Shown piece after piece: positions 9,094 to 27,466 of a stretch of 64,000 nucleotides of DNA. The position numbers and the translations under genes are program-made. This stretch comes from Hymenobacter tibetensis. GTDB lineage: Bacteria; Bacteroidota; Bacteroidia; Cytophagales; Hymenobacteraceae. The first letter of the stretch is position 1; the number at the start of each line of letters is the position of its first letter. The notes under the pieces were generated by a model. It was not told the origin of the DNA. It was given only the letters and a program-made list of their open reading frames with translations, and searched no databases. The stretch is taken from assembly GCF_022827545.1 (NCBI RefSeq), contig NZ_CP094669.1, positions 509,001 to 573,000 of the forward strand, given 5' to 3'.

Positions 9094-9708
9094 ATGGAGA
9101 TTAAAGACCGCATCTTATTGGCAGCGCGTGAACTCTTCACCCTCCGGGGTATCAAGAGTGTATCGATGGACGACATTGCTACGCATCTGAGCATGTCGAA
9201 AAAAACACTCTACAAATGGTTCGAAAACAAAGACCAGATAGTGGAAGGCGTGATGCGCCATCACCTAGGCCAGACCCAGAGCGAATGTCAAACCATACTC
9301 TGTGGGGCTGAATCAGCTATTGCTGAGCTATTTGGGATGATGGATTGGATGAAAAGTCAGTTCACTGATATGCATCCCAGCATTTTCCATGATTTGCAGA
9401 AATATTATCCGGCGTCTTATAAGCTCTGGCTTGAACATAAAAACGACTACATCCTAGAACAGATAACCGACAACCTGCGCCGGGGCGTGCAAGAAGGCCT
9501 CTACCGCGCCGACCTTGATATCGATGTACTGGCTCGCCTACGCCTAGGGCAAATCGAAATGGCCTTTAACCCAGTGGTTTTCCCGCCCCGCATCTTCGAC
9601 CTGCAGCGGGTCTCGCTCATTACGCTAGAGCACTTTATGCTGGGCGTTGCCACCCTCAAGGGGCACAAGCTAATCAACCAATACCGTCACGTGACGGAAG
9701 AAGAATAA
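9094..9708 (+). CDS. TetR/AcrR-family transcriptional regulator of the adjacent efflux operon
   Basis: DNA-binding repressor, 204 residues. The N-terminus (MEIKDRILLAARELFTLRG) and the helix-turn-helix core (VSMDDIATHLSMSKKTLYKWF) are clear TetR_N features; the remaining helices form a variable ligand-binding domain. A TTG six codons upstream (9076) lies inside the -7 element, so the ATG at 9094 is chosen. Its stop codon overlaps by one base the first possible start of the TolC gene, showing a shared operon with the outer-membrane, adaptor and pump genes. Likely represses its own operon through the palindrome at 9039-9066. The inducer is unknown. Confidence 0.92.
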   Translation: MEIKDRILLAARELFTLRGIKSVSMDDIATHLSMSKKTLYKWFENKDQIVEGVMRHHLGQTQSECQTILCGAESAIAELFGMMDWMKSQFTDMHPSIFHDLQKYYPASYKLWLEHKNDYILEQITDNLRRGVQEGLYRADLDIDVLARLRLGQIEMAFNPVVFPPRIFDLQRVSLITLEHFMLGVATLKGHKLINQYRHVTEEE

Positions 9709-18407: not shown

Positions 18408-18764
18408 ATGAACTCGCCCATTATCGTTGAAAATTCTTTTCTGGCCCGGCTTGCACGTCTCAAACTTGGAACGTATAGTGTGGCCATGGTGCTCGGCAAC
18501 AAAATCCACCTGAGCGGAGCCACGCGGGAGGAGTTCTTGAACGACCCGTATTGGGTGGCCCATGAGATGGAGCACATCCGGCAATTTCAGGAGCATGGCA
18601 AGCTTGGTTTCCTACGCCGTTACCTGCTCGATTGGATGCGCCACGGCTATTACAACATCCCCTTTGAAGTAGCCGCGCGCGAAGCTGCCCGCCTTAATGC
18701 TTCCCTCTACACCCAAGGCCGCCCCTTGCCTGACCCTGCTCAAATGCATCAGGGGGCACGATGA
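18408..18764 (+). CDS. Small HExxH metalloprotease-like protein (DUF4157-like)
   Basis: 118 residues built around H52-E-M-E-H56, the HExxH zinc motif of gluzincin-type peptidases. It sits in WVAHEMEHIRQFQEHG, close to the HELxHVxQ pattern of DUF4157 domains. A glutamate in IPFEVAAREA (E87) is a candidate third ligand. No signal peptide is seen. The protein is little more than the active-site helix pair, so it is either a minimal peptidase or a binding domain. A CAACTTTG sequence about 60 bp upstream resembles a weak -7 element. It is monocistronic. Family placement is from motif spacing only. Confidence 0.7.
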   Translation: MNSPIIVENSFLARLARLKLGTYSVAMVLGNKIHLSGATREEFLNDPYWVAHEMEHIRQFQEHGKLGFLRRYLLDWMRHGYYNIPFEVAAREAARLNASLYTQGRPLPDPAQMHQGAR

Positions 18765-21489: not shown

Positions 21490-21963
21490 ATGTGCATCGT
21501 TGACATTCTTGATATTGCCCGTCATCCGGTCTGGCTCATTGAGTGCGAAACGCCCGTGCCCGCCGGTTTTCCTAGCCCCGCCGACAACAGCCGAACCGGT
21601 GAGCGGATCGACCTGAACACCATTCTGCTGCCTCATCCTGATTGCACCTATCTGGCGCGAGTGAAGGGCCACAGCATGGACGGCCCACCCTCCCACATTC
21701 CGGATGGCGCCCTGATGGCCGTGGACTGTGCTTTGAAGCCGCAGCCAGGCAACGTGGTAGTGGCGGCCGTAGAAGGCGAGTTCACCGTGAAGCGCTTAGA
21801 GAAGCGCGGGCAGTTCTACTGGCTCGTGCCCGACAACCCGCACTACGACCCGCTCCAAATCACAGCGCCGGATCAGGCCCAAATCTGGGGCGTTGTCACG
21901 CATGTCATCACCGAGCTTATCAACGGCAAGCTGCAAGACCATGTTCGCTCTCGTCGACTGTAA
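21490..21963 (+). CDS. umuD: UmuD-like S24 self-cleaving subunit of a translesion polymerase
   Basis: 157 residues. After RecA-stimulated self-cleavage, UmuD-type proteins activate the UmuC polymerase. The probable cleavage site is A25-G26 in VPAGFPSP. The catalytic serine is S62 in KGHSMDG and the lysine is K101 in EFTVKRLEK. The N-terminal arm is about 25 residues, with no DNA-binding domain, which separates it from LexA. It overlaps umuC by 23 bp, as is usual for this pair. The region upstream is AT-rich with repeated ACTAAT/ATTAGT half-sites, a possible SOS operator. Confidence 0.9.
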   Translation: MCIVDILDIARHPVWLIECETPVPAGFPSPADNSRTGERIDLNTILLPHPDCTYLARVKGHSMDGPPSHIPDGALMAVDCALKPQPGNVVVAAVEGEFTVKRLEKRGQFYWLVPDNPHYDPLQITAPDQAQIWGVVTHVITELINGKLQDHVRSRRL

Positions 21964-23248
21964 TAATTTTTACGTGAGCTGCGAGCGGGCTTTTCAGCCC
22001 CGGTTGGTGGGGTTGCCGGTGGTAGTGCTCAGCAACAACGACGGCTGTATCGTTTCGCGCTCCGCGGAGGCCAAGGCCCTGGGCTTGAAGATGGGGGCTC
22101 CCTTTTTTCAGGCACGGCCACTTATCGAGGAACACCAAGTGCAGGTATTCTCCTCAAACTACGCGCTGTACGGCGACATGAGCTACCGGGTAATGAGCTA
22201 CCTGGCGTCCGTTGCGCCCGAAGTGGAAATTTATTCGATTGACGAAGCCTTTTTGGGGCTGCACGGCATGGAAGCCGGCTACGAGGGCCAACCCAAGCTG
22301 CTGGAGTTTGCGCAGGAAATCCGCAAGCAGGTCAAGCAGCGCACCCATATTCCTACGTGCATCGGCATTGCCCCCACCAAAACGCTGGCTAAGCTGGCTA
22401 ACCACATAGCTAAGAAGCACCCAGCGCTCAACGGGGTAGCAATGCTTGCGTCGGGGGAGCAGCAGTGGTGGGCCCTCAATCAGGTGGCCGTGGAAGACGT
22501 GTGGGGCGTTGGCCGCCAATACGGCCAGAAACTACGCGACTTGGGCCTTGTCACGGCCGCCGACTTGGCGCGTTGCTCGGAAGCCTGGGCCCGCAAACAC
22601 ATGGGAGGCGTGGTAGGCGCCCGGCTGGTGCGAGAACTTCAGGGGCAGCCGTGCCACCAGCTGCACCCAAGTGAAGATGGTACGCTGGCACGCAAGAGCA
22701 TTGCCTGTACCCGTAGCTTCGGCCGGCCCCTGTCGCACTTCGACGATTTGCTGGGCGCCGTGGCGAGCTTCACTTCCCGTGCGGCGAGCAAGTTGCGCGC
22801 GCAAGGCTCAAAGACCTATATCCTGACGGTTTTTATCAGTCAAAACCGTTTCGGGCCGACGCCACCGCCTTACACCTATTCCACCCAGCTCACGCTCCCA
22901 ACTCCCACCAACGACACCACCGAACTGGTGCGAGCAGCGCGTATGCTGTTAGGCAAGCTCTGGCGGCCGGGCTTGGTATACAAGAAAGCGGGTGTTATTC
23001 TGGATGGCTTAGAAGACCAAGGGCAGACGCAACTCAGCTTATTCGAGCAATTGCCCGAAACCACGCGTCCGCAATCGGCTGCGCTTATGCGCAAGCTCGA
23101 TCAGCTCAACGGGCGCTTCGGCCAAAACTGCGTACAGGTAGCCACTGCTGTGCCGCCAAAAGGCAAGCCAGCGCCTTGGCTGGGGCAGAAAAACCTCTGT
23201 AGCCTTGCCCGCACCACTTCCTGGAACGAGCTGTGGGAAATAGGGTAG
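21941..23248 (+). CDS. umuC: Y-family translesion DNA polymerase V catalytic subunit
   Basis: 435 residues. Copies past DNA lesions with low fidelity after activation by UmuD'. The Y-family active site is intact: FALVDCNNFYVSCE with the first metal aspartate, SNNDGCIVSR, and YSIDEAFL with the catalytic Asp-Glu pair. HhH and little-finger domains follow, and the UmuC-type DUF4113 tail is present (KAGVILDGLEDQGQTQLSLF). The ATG at 21941 starts directly at the catalytic motif; a longer frame to 21893 would lie inside umuD. It is the last gene before the SAM-riboswitch unit, and no terminator is evident in the 35-bp gap before the next promoter. Confidence 0.94.
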   Translation: MFALVDCNNFYVSCERAFQPRLVGLPVVVLSNNDGCIVSRSAEAKALGLKMGAPFFQARPLIEEHQVQVFSSNYALYGDMSYRVMSYLASVAPEVEIYSIDEAFLGLHGMEAGYEGQPKLLEFAQEIRKQVKQRTHIPTCIGIAPTKTLAKLANHIAKKHPALNGVAMLASGEQQWWALNQVAVEDVWGVGRQYGQKLRDLGLVTAADLARCSEAWARKHMGGVVGARLVRELQGQPCHQLHPSEDGTLARKSIACTRSFGRPLSHFDDLLGAVASFTSRAASKLRAQGSKTYILTVFISQNRFGPTPPPYTYSTQLTLPTPTNDTTELVRAARMLLGKLWRPGLVYKKAGVILDGLEDQGQTQLSLFEQLPETTRPQSAALMRKLDQLNGRFGQNCVQVATAVPPKGKPAPWLGQKNLCSLARTTSWNELWEIG

Positions 23249-23283: not shown

Positions 23284-23315
23284 TTTGATTTCTCGGCAGG
23301 GTAGATTTACCTTTG
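23284..23315 (+). promoter_or_regulatory. Bacteroidota promoter driving the SAM riboswitch transcript
   Basis: TTTG (23284-23287) and TACCTTTG (23308-23315) are separated by exactly 20 bp, the same spacing as the feoA promoter in this window. Transcription would begin near 23322, about 20 nt before the aptamer. Confidence 0.8.
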
Positions 23316-23341
23316 TCCCATCAATTCTTTACCCCAAAGGA

Positions 23342-23439
23342 TTGTTTTTATACAGAGGCGTGGAGAGACAGGCTCGACGAAGCGCCGGCAACCATCGGAT
23401 GATCCGAAACGGTGCCAAGTCCTGACCATATAAAAACAA
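23342..23439 (+). ncRNA. SAM-I (S-box) riboswitch aptamer
   Basis: The closing helix P1 is a perfect 11-bp pair, TTGTTTTTATA (23342-23352) with TATAAAAACAA (23429-23439). Inside lie the S-box consensus blocks in order: cagaggcgtggagaga, the ggctcgacgaagc internal segment, gccggcaacc, a small CGGA/TCCG hairpin, then cggtgccaagtcctgacc. These match the conserved SAM-I core (AGAG, GGAnAGAC, GAAgC, GCAACC, GGTGCcAAnTCC). It should bind S-adenosylmethionine and normally lower downstream expression when SAM is plentiful. No clear intrinsic terminator follows directly, and the next open frame starts only 7 nt after P1. Control may therefore act on translation or at a later hairpin. Confidence 0.92.
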
Positions 23440-23445
23440 GTTGCC

Positions 23446-23526
23446 GTGAAACGCTTCATCAACACCGTTGCCTCTTTCGCTACCGTCTTTGCTGTACAGC
23501 ATGGGTGTTGTGGCTGCTGTTGTTGA
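23446..23526 (+). CDS. 26-residue cysteine-tailed micropeptide (leader peptide or modified-peptide precursor)
   Basis: Starts at GTG 23446, 7 nt after riboswitch helix P1; an in-frame stop at 23431 rules out a longer frame. The product reads (M)KRFINTVASFATVFA followed by VQHGCCGCCC and stop: a short basic start, a hydrophobic middle and five cysteines in the last six residues. Four of the five Cys codons are TGT, while the two enzymes downstream use TGC for all five of their cysteines. It may be a leader whose translation senses charged tRNA-Cys. Alternatively it is a peptide substrate or scaffold for the ATP-grasp and monooxygenase. No Shine-Dalgarno is expected in this phylum. Coding status rests on composition and position, not homology. 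Confidence 0.65.
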   Translation: MKRFINTVASFATVFAVQHGCCGCCC

Positions 23527-23793
23527 GCAGGTGTAGGCAGCAAGTAGCAAGCGTTTTTGCTGGTACCATTTCCTCGCGTTACCCGTCGTGTGTTGGGGCA
23601 TGCCTGGCCAGTACACTTGGCCTCGTGGCGCGGCAAGTGCTTTAAGCACCTCTAGCTGGTAAATGTGCGGCGTAAGCTACTGCCTGCCGTTCCTTTCTGC
23701 ATTCCGCCTTTGTCTGTTACGGTTGGTTCTGCCTTGCTAGTAGCTTGGTAATTACTGCGTAGTGCAACCCTCCCTTAAGTAGTTCTGTTGTTT
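23527..23793 (+). other. Untranslated stretch between the micropeptide and the ATP-grasp gene
   Basis: About 270 bp with no supported gene on either strand. Weak stems are visible: CAGCAA (23538-23543) with TTGCTG (23557-23562), and an AGTGCTT/AAGCACT-like element near 23635-23650. It is probably transcribed leader RNA that links the riboswitch and micropeptide to the enzyme genes. Confidence 0.45.
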
Positions 23794-23818
23794 GCGCAGC
23801 TATAAGGCTGCGCTGTTT
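23794..23818 (+). promoter_or_regulatory. Possible attenuator hairpin before the ATP-grasp gene
   Basis: GCGCAGC (23794-23800) pairs perfectly with GCTGCGC (23807-23813) around a 6-nt loop, followed by TGTTTT. It ends about 35 nt before the ATG at 23854. It could be a terminator that ends transcripts unless the upstream leader is read in the permissive state. Confidence 0.5.
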
Positions 23819-23853
23819 TCCTGATTCTTTGTTCTCTCAACCCTCTCTTCTCC

Positions 23854-24858
23854 ATGTCTGTCTCCTCCAAGCCAATTGGCATCTATTACGAACATCCTGA
23901 GTGGTTCAAGCCGCTATTTGCGGAGCTAGACCGCCGGGGGCTCCCCTACGAAAAGATTGACGCTGCTCACCACCTGTTCGACCCCTCGGAAACCGAGAGC
24001 CGCTACGCGCTGGTAGTGAACCGGATGAGTTCTTCGGCTTATCTGCGCGGCCACGGCCAGGGTATTTTTCATACGGCGGGCTTTGCCACGCATCTGGAGC
24101 GCTTGGGCGTCCGCATCATCAACGGTACGGTAGCTACCAGCATCGAAACCAACAAAGCCCGTCAACTCTCGTTGTTTGCCTCGCTGGGGTTGAAGTACCC
24201 GAAGTCGTTTGTCGTGAACCACGCCTCGCGCATTGCGGATGCCGCTCAACAACTGCAGTTCCCCATTGTGGTGAAGGTGAACATTGGTGGTAGCGGTGCT
24301 GGCATTATCCGCTTCGATACGCTGGAAGGCGTGCAAGCTGCCGTTGAAGCCAACCAAATCGACCTAGGCATCGACCAAACTGCCTTGGTGCAGGAGTACG
24401 TGACGCCCCGCGGCGGCAATATTCACCGCGTCGAGACGCTGAACGGCAAGTTTTTGTACGCTATGAAGGTGTATACCACCGGCGAAAGCTTCAACCTGTG
24501 CCCCGCTGAAATTTGCCAGATTCCGGAAGAGCAGTCAGCAGAGTTCTGCCTGACGGAAGCGCCCAAGAAAGGCATTCAAGTGGAAGCATTTACGCCCCCA
24601 GCCGAAGTAATTGAGGCCGTGGAGCGCATCGTGGCCACCGCCAAAATCGATGTGGGGGGTATCGAGTACCTGATTGATGACCGCACCGGCGACGTGCTCT
24701 TCTACGACATCAACGCCTTATCCAACTTCGTGGCTGATGCCGTGAACGTAGTGGGCTTCGACCCCTACGCCCGCTTCGTAGATTATCTGGAAACGCAATT
24801 GCCTGCTGGTTCTGTTGCTGAGCTTGTTTCCTCGGATCCTCATCACCTCGTTGCGTAG
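23854..24858 (+). CDS. RimK-like ATP-grasp ligase
   Basis: 334 residues. ATP-grasp enzymes activate a carboxylate as an acyl-phosphate and join it to an amine or thiol. Visible features are an N-terminal preATP-like domain (IGIYYEHPEWFKPLFAELD), ATP-contact lysines K101 and K141 (FPIVVKVNIGGSGAG), the hinge VQEYV with E181, and the metal site VLFYDINALSNF (D285, N287) near the end. The closest general type is RimK/glutathione-synthetase-like; the substrate is unknown. The stop is separated by only 2 bp from the flavin monooxygenase start, so the two are almost surely co-translated. The SAM-I riboswitch and Cys-rich peptide upstream suggest a sulfur role. Confidence 0.88.
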   Translation: MSVSSKPIGIYYEHPEWFKPLFAELDRRGLPYEKIDAAHHLFDPSETESRYALVVNRMSSSAYLRGHGQGIFHTAGFATHLERLGVRIINGTVATSIETNKARQLSLFASLGLKYPKSFVVNHASRIADAAQQLQFPIVVKVNIGGSGAGIIRFDTLEGVQAAVEANQIDLGIDQTALVQEYVTPRGGNIHRVETLNGKFLYAMKVYTTGESFNLCPAEICQIPEEQSAEFCLTEAPKKGIQVEAFTPPAEVIEAVERIVATAKIDVGGIEYLIDDRTGDVLFYDINALSNFVADAVNVVGFDPYARFVDYLETQLPAGSVAELVSSDPHHLVA

Positions 24859-24860
24859 CC

Positions 24861-25886
24861 ATGAGATACGGATATTGGATGCCCGTTTTTGGCGGGTGGC
24901 TGCGCAATGTAGAAGACGAAAACATGCGCGCCGACTGGGACTACGTGAAAACGCTGGCCCAGCGTAGCGAAGACCTGGGCTACGACCTGTCTCTGATTGC
25001 CGAGCTAAACCTCAACGACATCAAAGGCGAGGAAGCACCTTCGCTGGATGCGTGGAGCACTGCCGCCGCCTTGGCCGCCGTTACCAAGAAAATAGAGCTG
25101 ATGGTGGCTGTGCGGCCTACGTTCCACTCGCCGGCGTTGCTGGCCAAGCAAGCCGCCAACATCGACCACATCAGTGGTGGCCGGCTGTCGTTGAATGTGG
25201 TATCGTCGTGGTGGCAGGATGAGGCCAAGAAGTACGGCGTGCATTTCGAGCAGCACGACGACCGGTACGCCCGCACGGCTGAGTGGCTGCACGTAGTAGA
25301 CAACCTCTGGAAGCAAGACCACTTCACCTTCGAAGGCAAGTTCTACAAAGTGACGGACTCTATTTTGCAGCCCAAGCCAGTGTCACGCCCGCGGCCATTC
25401 CTGTACGCGGGCGGCGAATCGGAAGCCGCCAAAAACCTGATTGCCACTCAGTGCGACGGCTACGTTATGCACGGCGACGACCCGGCAGCCATCGGCCGCC
25501 GCATTCAGGACTTGAGCGAGCGACGCGAAAAGCTGGGGTTGCCGCGCATGAAGTTTGGCGTGGCCGCCTACTCCATTGTGCGCAACACCGAGCAAGAAGT
25601 GAAAAAGGAACTGGAGCGCATCACCAACGTGCAAGGCTCGGCTGCGGGCTACAAAAACTACCAGCAGTGGCTGGCGGGTACGCAACTAGAAAACCAAGTT
25701 TCGTTGCAAGACTACTCAGTATCGAACCGGGGCCTGCGTTCCGGCCTCACCGGCACCCCCGACCAAGTAGCCGAGCGCATTGCCGCCTTTGAGGCCGTAG
25801 GGGTAGACTTGTTTTTGCTGCAGTGCAGCCCGCAACTCGAGGAAATGGAGCGTTTTTCGGAAGCCGTTATCCAGGTGTTGGCTTAA
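24861..25886 (+). CDS. LLM-class (luciferase-like) flavin-dependent monooxygenase, SsuD/SfnG type
   Basis: 341 residues, bacterial luciferase-like TIM barrel. Reduced flavin and O2 are used to oxygenate a substrate; SsuD and SfnG in this class split C-S bonds of sulfonates or sulfones. Family signs are the start MRYGYWMPVFGGW, VAVRPTFHSPALLAKQAA, the segment ISGGRLSLNVVSSWW (phosphate/flavin region), the motif FLYAGGESEAAKN, and the C-terminal TGTPDQVAERI. It is coupled to the ATP-grasp gene with a 2-bp gap. No separate flavin reductase or ABC transporter is adjacent, unlike classical ssu clusters. The exact substrate cannot be assigned. Confidence 0.9.
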   Translation: MRYGYWMPVFGGWLRNVEDENMRADWDYVKTLAQRSEDLGYDLSLIAELNLNDIKGEEAPSLDAWSTAAALAAVTKKIELMVAVRPTFHSPALLAKQAANIDHISGGRLSLNVVSSWWQDEAKKYGVHFEQHDDRYARTAEWLHVVDNLWKQDHFTFEGKFYKVTDSILQPKPVSRPRPFLYAGGESEAAKNLIATQCDGYVMHGDDPAAIGRRIQDLSERREKLGLPRMKFGVAAYSIVRNTEQEVKKELERITNVQGSAAGYKNYQQWLAGTQLENQVSLQDYSVSNRGLRSGLTGTPDQVAERIAAFEAVGVDLFLLQCSPQLEEMERFSEAVIQVLA

Positions 25887-27387: not shown

Positions 27388-27393
27388 TAGGAG

Positions 27394-27466
27394 AGCCTCT
27401 TATTGGACTCGAACCAACGACCTGCTCATTACGAATGAGCTGCTCTACCAACTGAGCTAAAGAGGC
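27394..27466 (-). tRNA. tRNA-Thr (anticodon CGT)
   Basis: On the minus strand the acceptor stem GCCTCTT pairs with AAGAGGC. The D arm reads GCTCAGTTGGTAGAGC, the anticodon arm GCTCA-TTCGTAA-TGAGC has anticodon CGT, and the T arm contains GGTTCGAGTCC. The length is 73 nt with discriminator T. CCA is not encoded. It reads ACG threonine codons. Confidence 0.95.

Follow-up and report, generated by a model that had tools for sequence, protein, structure and literature searches.

In a 64,000-nucleotide (nt) stretch of Hymenobacter tibetensis DNA (contig NZ_CP094669.1, positions 509,001 to 573,000 of the forward strand; referred to below as the window), a SAM-I riboswitch, which senses S-adenosylmethionine (SAM), and a short leader peptide ending in cysteines probably act together as a two-input control over a gene pair that is likely involved in sulfur scavenging. 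The pair encodes an ATP-grasp ligase and a luciferase-like flavin monooxygenase (LLM). As judged from sequence comparisons, the short open reading frame (ORF) between riboswitch and enzymes belongs to a class of leader peptides encoded behind SAM-I aptamers, in which the start codon usually lies at +9 from the aptamer end, the body of the peptide varies freely, and a run of Cys codons is found near the stop. The same reading extended to an order-wide class is also favored, with less assurance: SAM-I would gate translation of a Cys-run leader, a sulfur-acquisition regulon would be turned on only by a joint shortage of SAM and Cys-tRNA, and leaderless sibling riboswitches would serve metH and other genes as one-input switches.

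Cys-tailed leader ORFs behind SAM-I aptamers

All features of the locus lie on the forward strand. It begins with a match to the pattern TTTG-N20-TACCTTTG (positions 23284 to 23315), which fits the Bacteroidota promoter consensus. The looser motif TTG-N18-22-TAnnTTTG was found within 120 nt upstream at 33 of the 63 distinct sites from this genome and its family that had enough upstream DNA to be counted, compared to 0.1 in shuffled sequences, and a TAnnTTTG promoter box is named in PMC9723704. A covariance-model search placed a SAM-I aptamer at 23345 to 23436, covering the full RF00162 model (positions 1 to 108) with a score of 75.7 bits (gathering threshold, 44.4; E value, 6e-16). Its P1 helix pairs a 5' strand, TTGTTTTTATA (23342 to 23352), with a complementary 3' strand, TATAAAAACAA (23429 to 23439), giving 11 bp without a mismatch, 3 bp of which lie outside the Rfam boundary; the 3' strand is also the A-rich region in front of the leader start. 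Six nucleotides past the end of P1, a GTG codon opens a frame of 26 amino acids, MKRFINTVASFATVFAVQHGCCGCCC (23446 to 23526), which is read as a leader peptide on the strength of its reading frame and of like geometry in relatives. The codons TGT TGT GGC TGC TGT TGT (23506 to 23523), beside the TGA stop, are presumed to be control codons, based on Cys enrichment and TGT bias. The untranslated 327 nt that separate the leader stop from the ATP-grasp gene (23527 to 23853) presumably form an attenuation region, where the output step proposed below would take place. A hairpin scan of this stretch found GCGCAGC-TATAAG-GCTGCGC followed by TGTTTTCC (23794 to 23813), possibly a weak terminator, and most of the ATP-grasp leaders scanned have no counterpart at that place. 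The genes for the ATP-grasp ligase (23854 to 24858; 334 amino acids) and the LLM (24861 to 25886; 341 amino acids) follow, spaced by 2 bp. An earlier note on this DNA had described a full promoter, a SAM-I aptamer with a perfect 11-bp P1, a 26-codon frame ending CCGCCC, and a RimK-like ligase 2 bp from a luciferase-like monooxygenase, all of which were confirmed by the promoter match, the covariance model, the frame from GTG at 23446 to TGA at 23526, and the gene coordinates and Pfam domains.

Recurrence of the short frame was scored with two criteria. The strict criterion required at least three Cys among the last seven codons, and the wide criterion accepted either this or at least four Cys anywhere, with the start codon at −3 to +20 from the aptamer end (mononucleotide null for the wide criterion, 42 of 2,130). 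Sites in the family, order, and phylum samples were the better-scoring RF00162 matches listed, and the fractions given here describe those samples. The H. tibetensis genome has seven SAM-I sites, of which four carried a Cys-tailed ORF under the strict criterion, namely, the window site and those preceding cysH, an amino acid permease gene, and a gene for a pyridoxal phosphate (PLP) enzyme of Cys/Met metabolism. At a fifth site, preceding a SusC gene, the short frame ends in ...HGCCGLMRPFVCMQMTGMSC, and under the strict criterion no Cys-tailed ORF was found at the metH and cysM-like sites of this genome. Among 89 further SAM-I sites from 60 genomes of the family, 43 had a strict ORF, every one starting within −3 to +14 of the aptamer end. 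Dinucleotide shuffles yielded 0.1 such ORFs for the 89 family sites and 0.0 for the seven own sites when the start had to be in place (0.6 for the family with the start anywhere), reverse complements yielded none in either set, and control stretches 600 to 1,000 nt downstream yielded 3 of 89 and 0 of 7.

The order sample was reduced from 89 to 86 loci by removing three whose aptamer was already in the earlier sets, while three loci were kept despite failing a rough check of the aptamer. There, 33 of 86 sites satisfied the wide criterion, spread over 26 of 57 genomes, compared to 0.65 in mononucleotide shuffles and none in reverse complements. With only 26 codons and a GTG start, the window frame could be taken for a chance ORF, but recurrence this far above shuffles (43/89 against 0.1 and 33/86 against 0.65) refutes that reading, which is left with a negligible probability. 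The start codon lay at exactly +9 from the aptamer end in 43 of 80 qualifying ORFs.

Composition of the frames also points to a leader peptide. Cys made up 49.9% of the last ten residues compared to 2.0% of the body in 76 leaders, and ORF listings and alignments showed that the bodies differ among relatives. Leader Cys codons were TGT in 306 cases and TGC in 160, while the downstream genes used TGT 32 times and TGC 194 times; order-sample leaders had 132 TGT and 50 TGC. This mixture of TGT and TGC with Cys retained supports the leader reading frame over the other two frames. A run of control codons within a short ORF, and retention of those codons while the remaining peptide varies, are traits of amino acid leader-attenuators found here. 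A further such trait, an operon devoted to metabolism of the sensed amino acid, is present at the cysH and metY-like genes and would extend to the ATP-grasp/LLM pair if its presumed role is correct.

Genes behind the aptamers were labeled from Pfam hits of representatives together with similarity clusters; metY, metX, NhaC, and cysM are our own labels for genes that Pfam assigns to Cys_Met_Meta_PP, Abhydrolase_1, Na_H_antiporter, and PALP. After removal of repeats with an identical aptamer-plus-200-nt sequence, wide-criterion leaders in the family preceded all ATP-grasp/LLM (29/29), cysH (10/10), permease (9/9), SusC (6/6), M14 peptidase (4/4), and Na+/H+ antiporter-like (3/3) genes, as well as 19 of 25 metY-like PLP enzyme genes. 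They preceded 1 of 31 metH genes, 0 of 4 homoserine dehydrogenase genes, and 0 of 2 cysM-like genes, and the single metH match (locus L151, ending ...CSTAPWAL) is probably due to chance. Order-sample counts under the same criterion were 25/36 for metY-like, 2/3 for cysH, 1/1 each for antiporter and SusC, 3/10 for unclassified, 1/10 for metX-like, and 0/25 for metH genes. In the phylum sample they were 2/62 for metY-like, 1/1 for cysH, 0/16 for metH, 0/7 for metX-like, 0/2 for SusC, and 0/2 for other genes. By the identity of the genes behind it, the Cys leader tracks sulfur acquisition and not methionine synthesis from homocysteine. Whether riboswitch, Cys frame, ligase, and LLM recur together in relatives had been raised in the earlier note, and all four were found together at each of the 29 distinct family loci with an aptamer in the DNA examined. 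The view that this is not a standard S-box operon holds for the genes it contains, but SAM-I aptamers are also present elsewhere in this genome, before metH, the Cys/Met-metabolism PLP enzyme gene, cysH, and a cysM-like gene.

The leader class is also marked in the aptamer itself. Of 80 family riboswitches with Cys leaders, 74 have TATAAA in the P1 3' strand, compared to 1 of 43 others, and 31 of the 43 non-leader riboswitches have GATAAG instead; the sole non-leader site with TATAAA (L124) itself carries a frame ending GCCSSWYYC. Including its outward extension, P1 of the Cys-leader class has a median length of 11 bp, and its 3' end lies 6 nt from the start codon at 36 of the 80 family sites. 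The corresponding spacing in the other SAM-I class was left unused, as it depends on where Rfam ends the aptamer. At L208 and L209, similar P1 spacing leads into ORFs other than a short leader (a 497-amino-acid frame at +9 and a metX-like gene at +11), as would be expected if P1 controls translation start. Intrinsic terminators within 220 nt were found at 11 of 12 non-leader cysM, hom, and metY-like family sites, at 0 of 30 metH family sites, and at 12 of 81 Cys-leader sites, a set that includes the probable chance match L151. By these sequence features, two kinds of SAM-I platform exist within one family. In the order sample, all 10 metX-like sites have a TATAAA P1 and only 1 has a Cys leader; the metX-like TATAAA sites may be direct translational switches, with the L209 start (phylum sample) close behind P1.

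Two observations concern the history of individual leaders. The window leader (23300 to 23560) and that of the cysH site in the same genome are 92% identical over 209 nt, and their aptamers read alike, pointing to a recent copying or gene conversion event between the two. At three SusC-type sites from three family genomes (L137, L138, and L139), two successive Cys-tailed ORFs follow one aptamer, with stops at about +100 and about +320, which gives the appearance of a duplicated leader.

Proposed two-input control and its alternatives

In the proposed mechanism, bound SAM would keep P1 closed and the A-rich 3' strand TATAAAAACAA covered, and the ribosome could not initiate at the leader ORF. 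Left untranslated, the leader RNA would be exposed to premature termination, and the genes would stay off. When SAM is low, P1 would open and the leader ORF would be translated. With plentiful Cys-tRNA, the ribosome would finish the leader and depart, and expression would remain low; with scarce Cys-tRNA, it would stall at the Cys codons by the stop, shield the RNA just downstream, and allow transcription to reach the ATP-grasp and LLM genes. The operon would thus be fully on only with SAM and cysteine both short. We infer all of this regulation, including the block of leader translation by SAM, from sequence and predicted folding. In folding calculations, the P1 3' strand was unpaired with a mean probability of 0.74 in free folds (80 folds) and 0.08 once P1 was forced (67 folds). 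A sulfur-starvation operon with two sensors, one of two possibilities raised in the earlier note, is the favored one, given that riboswitch and Cys frame recur at 29 of 29 distinct family loci of the pair with an aptamer in the DNA examined and on other sulfur-acquisition operons.

The terminating agent, which is the weakest step of this model, could perhaps be Rho, because an intrinsic terminator close to the aptamer is rare among the Cys leaders. The gap between leader stop and gene has a median of 197.5 nt and contains 29.5% C and 22.2% G, compared to 28.6% and 26.8% in the downstream genes; the first 20 nt past the leader stop have 33% C and 19% G, and pyrimidine runs measure 7.7 after the stop compared to 5.8 in genes. 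The excess of C over G in the gap would suit Rho. Classical attenuation by a terminator/antiterminator pair was considered and rejected, with an intrinsic terminator at only 12 of the 81 sites and no specific alternative pairing. No general pair of this kind was found in the family leaders by a hairpin-plus-T-run scan or by duplex energies, and no general conserved RNA element was seen after the Cys run when leaders were aligned by genus and post-stop sequences were listed. The Cys leader therefore works like an attenuator but is not classed with the trp type, because the terminator/antiterminator trait is missing. Counting Cys-run ends by pattern across 41 genomes gave no usable information, because the pattern may also pick up CTG repeats within genes.

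Several results weigh against two-input control or individual steps in it. Pyrimidine runs farther along the leader are as long as those after the stop (7.6 compared to 7.7), without a local peak, and a search for a localized Rho utilization site behind the leader stops did not reveal one. The Cys run paired no more strongly with downstream RNA (mean z score, −0.77) than with the body of its own ORF (−0.80). The start region (−6 to +3) had a mean unpaired probability of 0.48 in free folds and 0.40 with P1 forced, and folding alone does not show P1 hiding the start codon. In the window, a Gly codon interrupts the Cys run. In the phylum sample, 4 of 90 sites qualified and only 3 of these had a properly placed start; in the order sample, 22 of 51 TATAAA sites failed the Cys criterion, which means that Cys sensing is not universal to the TATAAA platform. 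Finally, six loci that contain the enzyme pair (L225, L229, L251, L255, L258, and L261) had no RF00162 match in the locus scanned.

Among the alternatives, the one with the greatest weight, though still improbable, differs from the proposed model only in the output step: by translational attenuation, a stalled ribosome would refold the RNA and free a downstream initiation site, and no termination would be involved. Translation attenuation is described as demonstrated for the cysteine genes of Mycobacterium smegmatis in a 2026 paper (PMC13236596), and the Cys codons of the window are able to pair with post-stop RNA. However, gene starts lie a median of 197.5 nt past the leader stop, and no pairing was detected that exceeds what the ORF's Cys run forms with its own body. 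A second alternative, which we consider unlikely, keeps SAM as the sole input: the leader would be translated for no other purpose than to couple transcription to translation under riboswitch control, and the Cys run would not be a sensor. It can draw on sites such as L192, L341, L343, L354, L379, and L392, where the short ORF at a similar distance behind a TATAAA-type SAM-I lacks a Cys run; these are possibly leaders with SAM input only. It can also draw on the Mycobacterium tuberculosis Mbox-upstream ORF (uORF)-Rho system, for which the accessible text of PMC12810186 mentions no amino acid run. Against it are the retention of Cys runs near the stop while the body varies, their presence on sulfur-acquisition operons and near absence on metH, and the TGT codon bias.

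The proposed direction of the switch could also be reversed, with SAM closing P1, releasing the start from pairing with the aptamer core, and allowing leader translation at high SAM. In the free fold of the window, the word GTTGCC (23440 to 23445) immediately ahead of the GTG indeed pairs with GGCAAC of the aptamer core, which would hide the leader start without SAM and thus runs counter to the direction proposed above. The word occurs at 14 of 80 family Cys-leader sites (the window and 13 others), so this pairing is not general; it is absent from the other 66, where, as throughout, the general feature is an A-rich P1 3' strand before the start that is covered when P1 closes. This makes the reversed switch very unlikely. 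Still less probable is the second possibility raised in the earlier note, a peptide modification pathway in which the Cys-tailed peptide would be substrate or product of the ligase and LLM, as a peptide natural product or metallophore. Frame and enzymes are adjacent in the family, and the predicted ATP-grasp fold resembles ligases acting on carrier proteins or peptides (ArgX/LysX, RimK, and PsnB). Like ORFs, however, precede many operons of other content, including cysH, PLP enzyme, permease, SusC, and peptidase genes, their bodies are unconserved, and in other phyla the pair occurs without a Cys-tailed peptide in the stretch of up to 900 nt scanned upstream. Peptide modification was set aside on this distribution, which lacks the conserved precursor traveling with its enzymes.

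The ATP-grasp/LLM pair

The two enzymes resemble known families without reaching their curated NCBIfam cutoffs. Pfam recognizes the RimK domain PF08443 in the ATP-grasp protein (25.5 compared to a threshold of 21), but this protein misses the cutoff of the RimK family TIGR00768 (65.6 compared to 143.4 bits). Its structure model, with a mean predicted local distance difference test (pLDDT) value of 81.5, has a predicted fold closest to those of ArgX/LysX and RimK and also resembling PsnB; the model yields a fold class and no substrate. Residues K141, E181, E271, D285, and N287 are invariant in 27 homologues, and we take them to be residues with a role in ATP-grasp enzymes. The LLM protein, which carries PF00296, has SfnG (TIGR04021) as its best NCBIfam match at 254.3 bits, under the cutoff of 382.95, and misses the SsuD cutoff (TIGR03565) with 192.3 compared to 518.2 bits; its nearest solved chains are 3rao and 8vw6. 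It therefore shares the LLM family with SfnG and SsuD but differs from them in scoring under their curated cutoffs and in having an ATP-grasp ligase as its partner.

Homologues of the ATP-grasp protein were found in 31 of 120 family genomes, and Hymenobacter species are the closest named relatives among the matches listed, with up to 95% identity. The 32 family matches gave 30 loci (two matches lacked a locus), and an LLM gene adjoins the ATP-grasp gene at all 30. SAM-I was present at 29 of the 30 (20/20 plus 9/10), the remaining locus, L033, being without an aptamer in the DNA examined. More widely, the 80 best named loci of 459 included 75 with a same-strand LLM match in the DNA examined, from Bacteroidota, Planctomycetes, Acidobacteria, and others. 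A SAM-I-like text pattern lay within 900 nt upstream at 35 of these 80, all of the 35 being from Hymenobacter or Solirubrum plus Pontibacter and Nafulsella. In an Rfam scan of ten loci, SAM-I was just upstream in L220, L292, and L296 and farther off in L260. In the pairs of Spirosoma, Chitinophagaceae-type bacteria, Planctomycetes, and Acidobacteria, no Cys tail or SAM-I text pattern was found in the stretch of up to 900 nt scanned upstream.

At the Spirosoma (L251 and L252) and Cnuella (L261) loci, the pair is accompanied by genes for SusC, SusD, M14 peptidase, and redoxin-like proteins. Elsewhere, SusC and M14 genes stand behind SAM-I/Cys leaders of their own, and this shared company makes an organosulfur-scavenging role likely. 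By gene neighborhood, the ATP-grasp/LLM pair is thus most likely an organosulfur-scavenging module. In Chryseolinea serpens (L260), about 3.7 kb and three same-strand ORFs separate a SAM-I site from the ATP-grasp gene downstream of it. Two SAM-I sites (1186 to 1290 and 9569 to 9676) flank the ATP-grasp and LLM genes, the second being followed by a frame ending SNYCCC.

Relation to known leaders and neighboring genes

Classical S-box operons combine a SAM-I aptamer with an intrinsic terminator. The Cys-leader class shares the aptamer, and the terminator form exists in this same family at cysM-like, hom, and some metY-like sites; the class differs in its TATAAA P1, in the rarity of a terminator near the aptamer, and in the added leader ORF. 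In Salmonella, mgtA/mgtL combines a Mg2+-sensing RNA with a proline-codon leader peptide and Rho, and so resembles the Cys leaders in joining a sensing RNA to a leader peptide but differs in its proline codons, its Mg2+ signal, and its bacterial host. Poly-Cys leader peptides are also the subject of a 2020 study by Canestrari et al., whose title reportedly says leaderless.

In the M. tuberculosis Mbox-uORF-pe20 leader, a uORF is reported to be gated by a riboswitch, with termination that depends on Rho (D'Halluin et al. 2026, PMC12810186). There, as proposed here, a riboswitch gates a small upstream ORF before an operon, with Rho dependence that in the present case would have to be assumed; in the accessible text, the Mbox system differs in being a Mg2+ switch, in having a conserved small protein as its uORF, and in the lack of a described amino acid input. 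The poly-Cys leaders of Actinobacteria are similar in having short ORFs, Cys runs near the stop, and no conserved terminator hairpin, and Rho was suggested for the mycobacterial ones in a prediction termed rather weak by its authors (Seliverstov et al. 2005, PMC1262725). They differ in belonging to Actinobacteria and, as far as the accessible part of PMC1262725 describes them, in having no riboswitch in front. The Rhodobacterales uORFC-8-2, located before cysS, likewise has a proposed attenuator in which Cys codons would serve for control (PMC8632094), but in the portion available it is described with a U run as in an intrinsic terminator, with two Cys codons usually at positions 14 and 15, and before cysS only, with no riboswitch named.

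All components of the proposed control are of known kinds, and the part that may be new is the serial coupling of SAM-I to a Cys leader. A literature text search, with most subscription papers outside its reach, found no description of SAM-I and a Cys leader in series or of the ATP-grasp/LLM pair, in agreement with the earlier note, which knew of no described system with this composition. If the proposed control is correct, it would be a natural two-input RNA gate, joining a metabolite riboswitch and an amino acid leader peptide in series on many operons and in many genomes, with the leaderless metH riboswitches as built-in controls in the same cells. It would predict how these Bacteroidota tell methionine shortage from cysteine shortage, and the outline of the regulon would place the ATP-grasp/LLM pair, a SusC importer, and an M14 peptidase in sulfur acquisition. 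Tiny ORFs of this kind are easily missed by annotation.

Other features were noted around the locus, with genes named by appearance. A umuD/umuC-like gene pair (21490 to 23248) ends about 35 bp before the locus promoter. Farther upstream, a small protein encoded at 18408 to 18764 has a subthreshold match to PF13699 (eCIS_core; 21.5 compared to 22 bits). On the other side, a tRNA-Thr (CGT) gene lies on the reverse strand at 27393 to 27466, between a histidine kinase-like gene and a LacI-type regulator gene, and SusC/SusD-like genes lie beyond that regulator.

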